Origin: Collibacillus ludicampi
GTDB lineage: Bacteria > Bacillota > Bacilli > Tumebacillales > BOQE01
Direction of reading: 5' to 3'
Length of the DNA: 64,000 bases
NCBI RefSeq assembly: GCF_023705585.1
Contig: NZ_BOQE01000001.1
Span: 464,501 to 528,500 of the forward strand
A model generated the notes under the pieces. The model did no database searches. It was not told the DNA's origin and saw nothing but the letters and a program-made list of their open reading frames with translations. The first letter of the stretch is position 1; every line of letters starts with the position of its first letter. Both the position numbers and the translations under genes were made by a program. This document shows, piece by piece, positions 15,488-20,312 of this stretch.

Positions 15488-17593
15488 TTATCGAATTTTT
15501 AATAACCGTAACCCATTCAACGTAACCAGTATGGTCGCACCCATATCAGCGAGGATTGCCAACCAGAGTGTAAGCCATCCCGGAAAAACCAAAAGGACAG
15601 CCATTAACTTCGTGATTAATGCAAACGAGATGTTTTGTTTTATGACGCGCACTGCACTGCGGCCGAGGCGAATGGTAAAAGGAAGTTTGGACAGATCGTC
15701 TGACATTAACGCGATATCCGCGGTTTCCAAGGCGATATCCGTACTCACGCCTCCCATTGCGATCCCTACCGTCGCGGAAGCAAGTGCCGGAGCATCATTC
15801 ATCCCATCCCCAATCATCGCAACTTTTCCATATTTGTCGCGCAGCTGCTTGATTTTCTCCAATTTGTTTTGCGGTAACAATTCAGCATGATATTCGTCAA
15901 CGCCAACCCGCTTGGCAATCGTAGCTGCCGTTTTGTTGTTATCGCCGGTGAGCATAATGGTTTTTTCGATACCCGCGTTTTTTAATTCACGAACAGCTTC
16001 GACGCTTTGCTCCCTGACTTGATCCGCAACCGCGATCAAGCCGAGAATCTTTTCTTTAGTTCCTAGGATCATAACAGTCTTACCCTGCTCTTGCAGCGAC
16101 GAGATCCGCTCTTCAATCAAGGAGAGATCCCCGTGAAGCTCTTCAAACAGACGAGGATTTCCGATATAGTACGTTTCCCCTCCAATTCTTCCCGAAGCGC
16201 CTTTCCCCGTGATTGCCGCGAAACCTTCTGCCGGATGCGGAGACATGTTGTTTTCTTCCGCTTTATGCACGATCGCTTTTGCCAACGGATGTTCGGACAA
16301 TTTCTCCAGTCTCGCTGCTATTTCTAGAATATCGAGCTGGTTCTTTCTGCTCACTGTTTCGATATCTGTGACGGCCGGTTCACCTTTGGTTAGCGTTCCG
16401 GTTTTATCGAATGCGATAGCTTTCAGGTTGCCCGCCTCCTCCAAAAACACGCCGCCTTTAATCAAAACACCGTTTTTCGCAGCAGAACCGATCGCGGACA
16501 CGATCGCCACCGGTGTCGAAACGATCAGCGCGCAAGGGCACGCAACAACCAGGAGAGCTAATCCTTCGTAAACCCAACGGTTCCAATCACCTCCTGAAAG
16601 TGGAGGAATTACCGTAACGGCGACCGCCAACGCCATGACAATCGGCGTATAATATTTGGCGAATGTATCTACGAACGCTTGAGAAGGCGCTCTTTCGTTT
16701 TGTGCTTCTTCCACCAAGTGAACGATTTTCGCAATCGTAGTATCTTCGACCAATTTGTTGACGCGGACTTGAATCGCGCCCTGTTGGTTGAGGCTTCCCG
16801 CGTAAACCGCGTCGCCGATGTTTTTTCCAACCGGCATGGATTCACCGGTGATCGCCGCTTCATTGATCGACGATGTTCCGTCAATGATTTCCCCATCAAT
16901 CGCGATCTTCTCTCCGGGTTTAACCAAAACGACATCGCCTACGATCAGCTCCTCGACAGGAATTTTGTATTCTTTTCCGTTACGAATGACGGTCGCCTCT
17001 TTTGGCGCGATGTCCATCAAGGAGCGAATCGATTGCCGGGCTTTCTCCATGGAATAGGATTCAAGCATCTCGCTAACAGAGAAAAGAAACGCCACGACCG
17101 CCGCTTCTTTCCATTGCCCGATGAACAACGCCCCCACGATCGCTACGCTCATAAGGACATTCATATCAAAGTTCAACCGAAGCAGATTCCGAATCCCTTT
17201 GATCGCGACGGAATATCCACCGGCAACCATTGAAATGAGCAAGAAGGTTTTGGCCGAAACACTGTTCTCTTGAAACATCAAACCGATGAGCGAGGTAATG
17301 AGAGATACGCTCGCCGTAATCGACTTGCGATTGGATTCCCAAAAGGACTTGTTCACCGTGGATTCAGGAGCCCCCACCGGATGAATGGTGACGTTCTCCA
17401 CTTTCTTGATTTCTCTTTGCAATTCATCGTCAGAGATTGCCCCGACAATCGTCAGTTTTGCTGCTGCAAAATTCAATTTTGCCTCTTTTACGCCAGGCAC
17501 CGCCTGGACATGCCGCTCCAATTTCGCGGCACAATCCGCTCAGGTCAATCCTGTTAATCGGTATTGTTTTTGAACCGCCGAGATGTCATCCAT
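15488..17593 (-). CDS. cadA: Cd/Zn-type P1B ATPase, predicted selenoprotein (UxxC metal-binding domain)
   Basis: ATP-driven efflux of Zn2+/Cd2+/Pb2+, 701 residues from ATG 17593 (AGGAGGTGATTC ribosome site). Seen: one N-terminal metal-binding domain, the CPC motif (VVACPCALIVSTP), DKTGTLT with the phosphorylated Asp, SEHPLAKAI, GDGMNDAPAL and the C-terminal ADMGAT typical of CadA/ZntA. Codon 18 is TGA (17540-17542): it reads YRLTGLT-UGA-ADCAAKLERH, so UGA stands exactly for the first Cys of GLTCADC. The stem TGCCGC/GCGGCA (17526-17531 and 17511-17516) around a nine-base loop starting with G lies eight bases downstream. Selenocysteine decoding is inferred; otherwise only a protein restarting at TTG 17521, without this motif, would be made. 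Confidence 0.8.
17511..17531 (-). promoter_or_regulatory. candidate bacterial SECIS hairpin in cadA
   Basis: A perfect 6-bp stem, TGCCGC and GCGGCA, extendable by two G-U pairs, with loop GAAATTGGA. It starts eight bases after the in-frame TGA, and the first loop G is 14 bases after it. The spacing is slightly shorter than the usual 16-37 bases for bacterial SECIS loops, so confidence is moderate. Confidence 0.55.
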
Positions 17594-17938
17594 CTTGAAT
17601 CACCTCCTGCCATCAGGTCGCGCGCACATCCACATGTATCTTTTTCACCTTGACGATCAGACTGCCATGGAAACATACAACAATAGAGGATTACGAGTGT
17701 TTTTTCAATGTCAACCATTTTTCATGACGATGAACCAAAAAATTATTGAGATCTTCTCAAATCTGTTCTATCCTTTCGCTAAGCACATGTATAGTTTCAT
17801 TTCAGTTTCCGAGTTTATTAGCTGTTTCTGTGAAAGATGCACCAGGTAACGTTCAGCATTGATCTTTGTTTTCATTATTTTTTCAGGAAATTACGTTATG
17901 GTTAAATCGACACGATCGGATGGAAAAGGAGAACATCG
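17594..17938. other. intergenic region between cadA and the methyltransferase gene
   Basis: No gene was seen. An inverted repeat TTGAGA-TCT-TCTCAA (17746-17760) could be a metal-regulator operator. A TTGACA at about 17708-17713 on the minus strand lacks a well-spaced -10 at normal 17 bp (a TATTGT lies 23 bp on). No metal-responsive regulator gene is adjacent. Confidence 0.35.
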
Positions 17939-18511
17939 ATGTTTAGGATACAGGCTGAACTGTTGAACAGATTATCATTTTTTAATAAGTTTTTCCATTC
18001 TCCTAGAACCATTGGGAGCATCACTCCCAGTTCCATCTTTCTAGCTAAAGAGATGGTTAAATGTGTGGATTGGAAAAATACCGATGTTGTTGTAGAGTTG
18101 GGGGCCGGTACAGGTATCTTTACCCGCCAAATTCATGGGTTGAAAAAACCGGATTGCTCCGTGGTCATTTTTGAATTGGATCACCAGATGAGAAGGCGTC
18201 TCCAAGAACAATACCCAAGTTTTCATTACTATGCAGACGCCCAATATATGTCTCGTGCTCTGGAAGAGTTCGGTATTCCCCAAGTCGATTGTATTGTGTC
18301 AGGGTTGCCCTTCACAACATTTCATAAAGGTTTACGGGACAAGATCCTCGATGGTGTTATTCATTCGTTAAAACCCGGTGGATGGTTTATCACGTTTCAA
18401 TATTCCCTTCACATGAAGAAAGAGCTTATCCAGCGATTTAAAAAGGTCGATATTTCGTTTGTTCCCTTCAATGTTCCCCCGGCGTTTGTATATCGTTGCC
18501 AAAAGGAGTAA
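17939..18511 (+). CDS. class I SAM methyltransferase, phospholipid/rRNA-adenine type
   Basis: A 190-residue Rossmann methyltransferase. The opening FNKFFHSPRTIGSITPSSIFLA and motif I VVELGAGTGIFTRQI (about residues 50-64) resemble the PmtA/KsgA-like group that methylates phosphatidylethanolamine or rRNA adenine; IVSGLPFTTF occupies the motif IV position. A KsgA-like enzyme would have NLPY there, so the lipid-type subgroup is the better guess. ATG 17939 has GGAAAAGGAG about eight bases before. It precedes the deacetylase gene by about 130 bp in the same direction. The substrate cannot be fixed from sequence. Confidence 0.7.
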   Translation: MFRIQAELLNRLSFFNKFFHSPRTIGSITPSSIFLAKEMVKCVDWKNTDVVVELGAGTGIFTRQIHGLKKPDCSVVIFELDHQMRRRLQEQYPSFHYYADAQYMSRALEEFGIPQVDCIVSGLPFTTFHKGLRDKILDGVIHSLKPGGWFITFQYSLHMKKELIQRFKKVDISFVPFNVPPAFVYRCQKE

Positions 18512-18638
18512 GCTGATTTCTGGTCAAGATCATGATACTTATCTTTGAACTGGGAAAACGGGTTTGTTCACACGGAGACTCGTTTTGGAATCAGTGGATC
18601 CTTTATGATTACCTCAAGATTCAAGGAGAGCGAGAATT

Positions 18639-19397: not shown

Positions 19398-19433
19398 AAT
19401 ATGAAAAATTACAGCCAGTCTTTTTCTTATTAA

Positions 19434-19581
19434 CTCAAGTTTCGCACCCTTAGACGTCTGGTTTTTCCTTATTTGCTTAGGCAATCGGTCAATATACTGC
19501 TGTTAAATGTTATCGATGACACTCATGTCGTTCCCGTTTTCCATGTAAAGCGATGCTTTCAAATGGGGTGCGAAACTTGAG
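19434..19581. mobile_element. 148-bp insertion-sequence remnant or MITE
   Basis: Perfect 16-bp terminal inverted repeats: CTCAAGTTTCGCACCC (19434-19449) and GGGTGCGAAACTTGAG (19566-19581). The inside, read on the minus strand, gives MENGNDMSVIDN then a stop and QQYIDRLPKQIRK, which looks like the broken start of a transposase. No clear target duplication is visible. The IS family is not assigned. Confidence 0.65.
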
Positions 19582-19664
19582 GTGTTCATGTTACGACCAA
19601 ATAAATAGCCACCTTATCATAAAGTGGCTGTTATTGTATATTCAAGTAAACCGAATACTTGTTT

Positions 19665-20312
19665 CTAATCACATCCATCGATACCACAAACCATGCCTTC
19701 AACAAAGGTTTTCTTTTGCTTTTCAATCTCCCCATCAATTACTTGTTCTAATGTCTCCTGGCTGTATAAACCAGGTAATACTCGATCGCCAATTATAAAA
19801 GTAGGAACAGCCGTAATTTTTGCTTCCTCATAGGCGTGTTGTAATGCTTTCTGATGAGCTTCTTTGTATTTCCGAGTTTCCAATGCTTTTCTAAATTCGT
19901 CTCCGTTTAGCCCAACTTCTATTGCAAGTTCAGTAAGAACATCTATCTTTCCGATATCCTTCTCTTCTTGAAAAAATGCCTGCATTATTCGATGATTATA
20001 AGCATTTGCTTTTCCCTGTTCTTTTGCAAACTGAAATCCTTCAAAAGCCAAGTGCGTGTATGGTTGGGGTGAAACTCTCGGCAATACTATTTTTACTCCA
20101 AAACGTTCTGCTGTAGGGTAAACGTTTTTTCTCCAAGCGTTTTGTAGATAATCCCCTTCAGGTCTTAAAGTTGGAATGGGATATGGACGTAATTCAAAAG
20201 GCATCCATTCGATTTCTACATCTTTACCCTTAATCGCTTCTTCAAGCGGAGCCTCCGCTATAAAGCAATAGGGTCAAACATAATCAGAATAAACACGAAT
20301 TTTCAAACTCAT
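19665..20312 (-). CDS. DsbA-family oxidoreductase, predicted selenoprotein (UPYC active site)
   Basis: A thioredoxin-fold DsbA/FrnE-type thiol oxidoreductase or isomerase, 215 residues from ATG 20312 (GGAGGAG ribosome site). Codon 13 is TGA (20274-20276): the reading is MSLKIRVYSDYV-UGA-PYCFIAEAPLEEA, so UGA replaces the first Cys of the CPYC active site. The rest is a complete family member, with AVPTFIIGDRVLPGL (the cis-Pro loop) near the C-terminus and a final CGIDGCD. A perfect 6-bp stem-loop (20245-20259) lies 14 bases after the UGA. Selenocysteine insertion is inferred. Translation from the internal ATG 20204 would lack the whole active site. Confidence 0.83.
20245..20259 (-). promoter_or_regulatory. 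candidate bacterial SECIS hairpin in the DsbA-family gene
   Basis: On the minus strand AGCGGA-GGC-TCCGCT, perfect over six pairs (or five pairs with an AGGCT loop). The loop G is about 20 bases after the TGA, inside the range known for bacterial SECIS elements. The stem is GC-rich and unusually regular for coding sequence. Confidence 0.65.

Follow-up and report, generated by a model that had tools for sequence, protein, structure and literature searches.

The window analysed here, a stretch of 64,000 nucleotides (nt) from Collibacillus ludicampi (contig NZ_BOQE01000001.1, positions 464,501 to 528,500), carries two genes that are each interrupted by a single in-frame UGA: a gene for a predicted heavy-metal translocating P-type ATPase and one for a DsbA-like thiol oxidoreductase. 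The evidence presented below makes it very probable that both UGAs are selenocysteine (Sec) codons in intact genes and not nonsense mutations. The genes and their UGA codons are the following:

15488..17593, minus strand: heavy-metal translocating P-type ATPase (predicted Cd/Zn/Pb type), 701 codons with one UGA, putatively read as Sec, at residue 18; TIGR01525, TIGR01512, HMA, E1-E2_ATPase and Hydrolase
17540..17542, minus strand: in-frame UGA of the ATPase gene, codon 18, first residue of UxxC (UADC) in the N-terminal HMA metal-binding domain
19665..20312, minus strand: FrnE-type DsbA-like thiol oxidoreductase, 215 codons with one UGA, putatively read as Sec, at residue 13; PF01323, FrnE match
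20274..20276, minus strand: in-frame UGA of the DsbA-like gene, codon 13, first residue of the active-site UxxC (UPYC)

Interrupted genes and the selenocysteine machinery of the host

The context of the UGA is GLT-U-A-D-C in the ATPase and YV-U-P-Y-C in the DsbA-like protein, in agreement with a first-pass annotation of this DNA that had placed both UGAs at the first cysteine (Cys) of a CxxC motif. The same annotation had described the genes as otherwise intact, and apart from the single UGA both frames are indeed free of stops. In each gene an ATG preceded by a ribosome-binding site lies upstream of the UGA (GGAGGTGATTCAAGATG; GGAGGAGTAAATATG). The ATPase scored 647.8 bits against TIGR01525 (cut-off 346.25) and 552.2 bits against TIGR01512 (cut-off 313.5). 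It also passed the copper-type model TIGR01511, with a lower score than for the Cd/Zn/Pb-type models, and is assigned to the Cd/Zn/Pb type by family score. Its Pfam domains are PF00403 (HMA), PF00122 (E1-E2_ATPase), and PF00702 (Hydrolase). The DsbA-like protein scored 107.1 bits against PF01323 (cut-off 25.6), carries a C-terminal CxxxxC at 209-214 (C209, C214), and matched FrnE in the PDB (5cnw, E 7.7e-18, phmmer).

A total of 78 stops precede the long open reading frames (ORFs) of the window. A coding signal was seen just upstream of 10 of these, and only the two UGAs described here are spanned by a known protein motif, as judged by eye. A single random mutation to UGA would strike the exact Cys codon in 1 of 47 possible codons of the ATPase and in 1 of 25 of the DsbA-like gene. 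The decisive evidence against chance is the retention of UGA at the same codon across genera; together with the motifs across the stops, it upholds the earlier argument that two such UxxC candidates are no coincidence.

The host genome (4.09 Mb, 99.87 % complete) was examined for the selenocysteine machinery. The selC tRNA, on which the first-pass annotation had made its prediction depend, was found: tRNA-Sec scored 67.8 bits, the gathering score being 47, and ARAGORN calls a tRNA-SeC with anticodon tca. Two further places lie narrowly above the cut-off (48.6 and 47.6 bits) and are presumably ordinary long-arm tRNAs. The genes selA (618.3 bits), selB (391 bits), and selD (418.2 bits) are present with scores above the respective cut-offs. 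selA adjoins selD (C1:206557-208891), which is a further selenoprotein gene with one UGA at the expected site in UGCKIGP. Judged by its gene content, the host uses selenocysteine, and the prediction that it decodes UGA in this way is strengthened by the conservation of the two UGAs in relatives that carry selA. The trait had been called sparse in Bacilli. Among the 398 genomes sampled from the class, 85 have selA, which makes selenocysteine decoding a minority trait there and not a rare one; within the order, all 14 sampled genomes have the gene. The description thus holds only in part.

Conservation of the UGA codons and of the hairpins that follow them

Among relatives, 30 DsbA and 30 ATPase loci were read, the window's own copy being counted in each set. 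At the aligned position, 13 of the DsbA and 12 of the ATPase loci have UGA, and the remaining 35 have TGC or TGT. UGA was found in 13 of 19 DsbA loci of genomes with selA versus none of 11 of genomes without it (Fisher 3e-4), and in 12 of 19 versus none of 11 for the ATPase (Fisher 6e-4), relatedness not being removed in either test. Named genomes, scanned for relatives of the DsbA gene, yielded 80 loci, 16 with UGA and 64 with Cys. All genomes with a UGA locus (16 of 16) have selA; for 34 of the 64 Cys loci the genome was tested, and 21 of these genomes have it. One of the UGA genes, at 87 % identity, belongs to Aneurinibacillus terranovensis DSM 18919, a culturable relative.

Downstream of the UGA, synonymous changes account for about one half to three quarters of the codon differences in ten comparisons (for instance 86 of 143 for DsbA versus genome G002 and 300 of 463 for the ATPase versus G036). 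Upstream, where each comparison covers only 10-16 codons, they make up at least half of the differences in nearly every case. Nonsynonymous divergence (dN) downstream of the UGA is 0.11-0.32; counts of synonymous codons are given in place of ratios because synonymous divergence (dS) is saturated in most comparisons. Both frames are under purifying selection on either side of the UGA.

UGA-containing DsbA genes were also seen in contigs labelled as Planctomycetota or Acidobacteria metagenome-assembled genomes (L149, L157, L160, L164, L168), where the sequences are nested among those of Bacilli, as a consequence either of lateral transfer or of a binning error.

Three hairpins that may act as selenocysteine insertion sequence (SECIS) elements lie downstream of the two UGAs:

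20245..20259, minus strand: putative SECIS hairpin of the DsbA-like gene, AGCGGA-GGC-UCCGCU, loop 20 nt after the UGA; a longer stem, 20227-20273, is possible around this core
17510..17532, minus strand: candidate hairpin 1 of the ATPase gene, GUGCCGC-(9-nt loop with G as its first base)-GCGGCAU, loop 14 nt after the UGA
17493..17507, minus strand: candidate SECIS hairpin 2 of the ATPase gene, CCAGGC-GGU-GCCUGG, loop 38 nt after the UGA; pairs 4 and 6 covary in 7 UGA relatives

The claim that each UGA is followed by a stem-loop with an apical G was clearly borne out for the DsbA-like gene, whose hairpin lies within the published limits for bacterial SECIS (bSECIS) elements (loop GGC, spacing 20, -20.1 kcal/mol with the extended stem). 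In the ATPase gene, with a GGU-loop hairpin at 38 nt and a 9-nt-loop hairpin at 14 nt, the matter is less clear. The sequence GCGGA-G[GU]N-UCCGC is found at a fixed place in UGA DsbA genes, with its loop 20 nt after the UGA; in two genes without the closing A-U pair, the loop begins at 19. Stem pairs 2 to 6 are formed in all 23 distinct UGA sequences; the 68 distinct Cys sequences form pair 3 in 15 cases and pair 1 in 5 cases. These tables, and the DsbA tree mentioned below, were built from L029-L044 together with 77 loci of the named genomes, 3 of the 80 having been removed as repeats; the more distant loci L045-L058, 14 in number, are not included. The hairpin criteria were fixed on the first locus set after the hairpins had been seen and were then applied unchanged to new DsbA loci, where the hairpin was present in 13 of 13 UGA genes (16 of 16 with the 3 repeats) and in 2 of 64 Cys genes. 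The hairpin outperformed synonymous shuffles (P ≤ 0.05) in 24 of the 25 UGA loci of the first set, with P values of 0.002 for the window's own DsbA and 0.013 for its own ATPase, and in 13 of the 16 UGA DsbA loci of named genomes. The residue at U+8 is V, A, G, D, or F in all 23 Sec DsbA proteins versus 18 of 70 Cys proteins, a restriction imposed by the requirements of the hairpin loop.

In the two Cys DsbA genes that form the exceptions, L108 of Paenibacillus naphthalenovorans and L135 of P. darwinianus, a G-loop hairpin has been kept, and neither genome contains selA. This would fit a recent Sec-to-Cys change, and the hairpins are possibly fossil SECIS elements.

The ATPase clade of the window (7 UGA loci) shares both hairpins. 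Hairpin 1 is nearly invariant, and hairpin 2 has loops GUU (5) or GGU (2) and shows two-sided changes, A-U/G-C and C-G/U-A. Pairing was better than in synonymous shuffles (P ≤ 0.05) in 6 of 7 clade loci for hairpin 1 and in 5 of 7 for hairpin 2. In the minimum-energy fold of the 60 nt after the window's ATPase UGA, hairpin 1 is formed and hairpin 2 is not. Published bSECIS spacing is 16-37 nt (PMC13188914). Within these limits the window's ATPase has a hairpin at spacing 23, with loop GCGGCATG, which most of the clade does not have. The five UGA ATPases outside the clade also carry a G[GU] hairpin, in 4 of 5 at 17 nt with a GUU loop. The SECIS signal of the ATPase is less clear than that of DsbA, the distal hairpin at 38 nt, one base past the published range, being the better supported of the two. 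It is conceivable, albeit somewhat short of probable, that in the window's ATPase clade a tandem-hairpin SECIS with a G[GU]N loop 38 nt after the UGA, outside 16-37 nt, directs Sec insertion.

With selD as a positive control and the criteria unchanged, the hairpin was found in 11 of 11 UGA genes and was absent from the single Cys selD. In selD of several genomes (L018-L028), two successive hairpins lie about 17 and 33 nt after the UGA and resemble the tandem pair of the ATPase. The distal one (33 nt) is of the G[GU]N type, in genomes shared with the ATPase clade.

Competing explanations and the proposed functions

Some observations weigh against selenocysteine as the meaning of both codons. 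The UGA DsbA gene L045 (genome G004) is without the hairpin and has an extra in-frame TAA at codon 190, and the UGA ATPase gene L084 (G020) carries a TAG at codon 676. The relatives sampled include no genome of the host's own genus. The hairpin criteria were set post hoc; a held-out set exists for DsbA only, and the ATPase criteria have none. The published bSECIS limits, applied literally, are passed by 12 of 13 UGA DsbA genes and also by 3 of 17 Cys ones. They separate the ATPases poorly, as 7 of 12 UGA and 5 of 18 Cys genes pass. The hairpin is also kept in the Cys ATPases L060 and L061, which are close to that of the window, and in L087 (17 of 35 Cys loci examined). The tree of 93 DsbA proteins contains at least 5 changes between Sec and Cys, only 2 of which are forced by well-supported branches. 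As the changes are so few, the kinship-corrected test is underpowered and the association of Sec with the hairpin in DsbA is without kinship-free significance.

If the genes were decaying and owed their UGAs to nonsense mutation or sequencing error, the host genome would at least offer them company, since decay is real there: fragments of CopA-type HMA sequences, an FdhA-like gene with an internal TAA, and a permease that looks frameshifted were found. Such decay would have had to hit one and the same Cys codon in many genera, in 13 loci of DsbA and 12 of the ATPase, always in genomes with selA, and to have left purifying selection, hairpins, and no other stop in either of the window's genes. 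This explanation is extremely unlikely and, given the conservation across genera, can be regarded as refuted in practice. That the UGA is a true stop and short products do the work, for example an ATPase lacking the HMA domain and restarted downstream at a site such as TTG 17521, is very unlikely. A 677-codon ORF starting at this TTG is contained in the mechanical ORF list, and P-type ATPases can function in the absence of an HMA domain. Yet the stretch upstream of the UGA (10-16 codons each) is conserved, at least half of its changes being synonymous, the upstream ATG has a good ribosome-binding site, and a downstream restart would cost DsbA its active-site residue. A general reassignment or suppression of UGA with insertion of another amino acid has no observation in its favour and is next to impossible: UGA is an ordinary terminator in the window, where TGA accounts for 33 of the 78 stops that precede long ORFs, and a tRNA-Sec with a UCA anticodon is present together with SelA, SelB, and SelD.

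Selenocysteine insertion at both UGAs is therefore retained as the preferred reading. In bacteria, insertion of Sec by SelB at a UGA followed by a hairpin is well established. From the parts found in the host, SelA and SelD would make Sec-tRNA(Sec), which SelB would bring to the UGA where the mRNA hairpin follows. The DsbA-like gene would use a standard bacterial SECIS, GCGGA-G[GU]N-UCCGC with the loop 20 nt after the UGA, while in the ATPase gene, with its tandem hairpins, the distal hairpin with the G[GU]N triloop is the preferred SECIS candidate. The cytoplasmic HMA domain of this Cd/Zn/Pb-type P1B ATPase may bind soft metal ions via the selenolate and thiolate of UADC, and a selenolate at this site would be expected to tighten such binding. 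The DsbA-like product is most probably a cytoplasmic disulfide reductase or isomerase of the FrnE type with a UPYC active site, which the C-terminal CxxxxC may regenerate.

Genomic context and relation to known selenoproteins

A methyltransferase and a polysaccharide deacetylase gene lie on the opposite strand between the ATPase and DsbA-like genes. In tblastn searches with five window genes, reaching up to 1.5 kb on each side of the relatives' loci and up to 6 kb for the named-genome DsbA loci, no locus was found with the window ATPase, AdaA, methyltransferase, or deacetylase beside DsbA, or the reverse; the sole hit (L131) is an ATPase at 30 % identity. With intervening genes on the other strand and no co-location in relatives, an operon was rejected, and the stress-linked module suggested in the first-pass annotation was not upheld. 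A common role of the two proteins in metal or thiol stress is possible; a link between the two genes finds no support here. The amino-acid permease at 20560-21936 (minus strand) has a Pfam match over residues 23-333 only, and its continuation is out of frame; a C-terminal piece resembling a permease, recognized by eye and without a Pfam hit, lies in another frame at 20649-20897. The gene looks frameshifted.

Other interrupted genes of the host were rejected as selenoprotein candidates. An HMA search gave two more UGA-containing ORFs (L173, C1:3323826-3323996, and L172, C1:3331870-3332055), near-identical CopA-type HMA fragments with further stops nearby and with UGA at the Gly position of GMTCAAC. 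Both have the look of decayed duplicates and give a picture of real nonsense decay in this genome. The FdhA-like gene (L178, C1:2391339-2393378) has Cys at the expected catalytic site and an internal TAA after NLAEC, and is otherwise open.

Both families are already in print. Table 3 of PMC5029168, which gives the top 20 bacterial selenoprotein families, contains the DsbA-like protein with 41 organisms and 45 proteins and the Cation-transporting ATPase E1-E2 with 25 organisms and 32 proteins; both are given with UxxC in Table 1 of PMC13188914 and in PMC9312934. For Firmicutes/Bacillales, three selenoprotein families were counted as early as 2006 (PMC1794560). The window genes are accordingly new examples of catalogued kinds, and the one feature that may go beyond present knowledge is the spacing of 38 nt in the ATPase clade, a possible widening of the bacterial SECIS spacing rule; if it is real, SECIS-based screens would miss such ATPase genes. 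Under the selenocysteine reading, two apparent pseudogenes become intact genes and the selenocysteine trait is assigned to this lineage of Bacilli. In related Firmicutes the same pump and the same oxidoreductase occur with Sec or with Cys, which offers a natural comparison for the role of selenium in metal binding and disulfide exchange.

The ATPase shares with the Cation-transporting ATPase E1-E2 family a TIGR01525 score over the cut-off, UxxC at the N-terminal metal site, and a selABCD host. It differs in its Bacilli host and in a best-supported hairpin at 38 nt instead of 16-37 (published example of the family: ABB15669.1). The DsbA-like protein agrees with the DsbA-like protein form 1 family in PF01323, the UxxC active site, and a bSECIS-type hairpin, and in these respects no difference was found (published example: NIP15863.1). 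Its nearest solved relative is FrnE of Deinococcus radiodurans (DR_0659). FrnE proteins are described as cytoplasmic, with CxxC in a DsbA-like domain and, in many but not all members, a C-terminal CxxxxC; the D. radiodurans protein is induced by cadmium, its mutant is sensitive to cadmium and diamide, and its C-terminal CxxxxC has been proposed to regenerate the active site (PMC8945050). The window protein has in common with it the DsbA-like thioredoxin domain, by sequence, the C-terminal CxxxxC, and the lack of an apparent N-terminal signal (by eye), whereas CP(W/F)C in FrnE is replaced by UPYC in the window protein.

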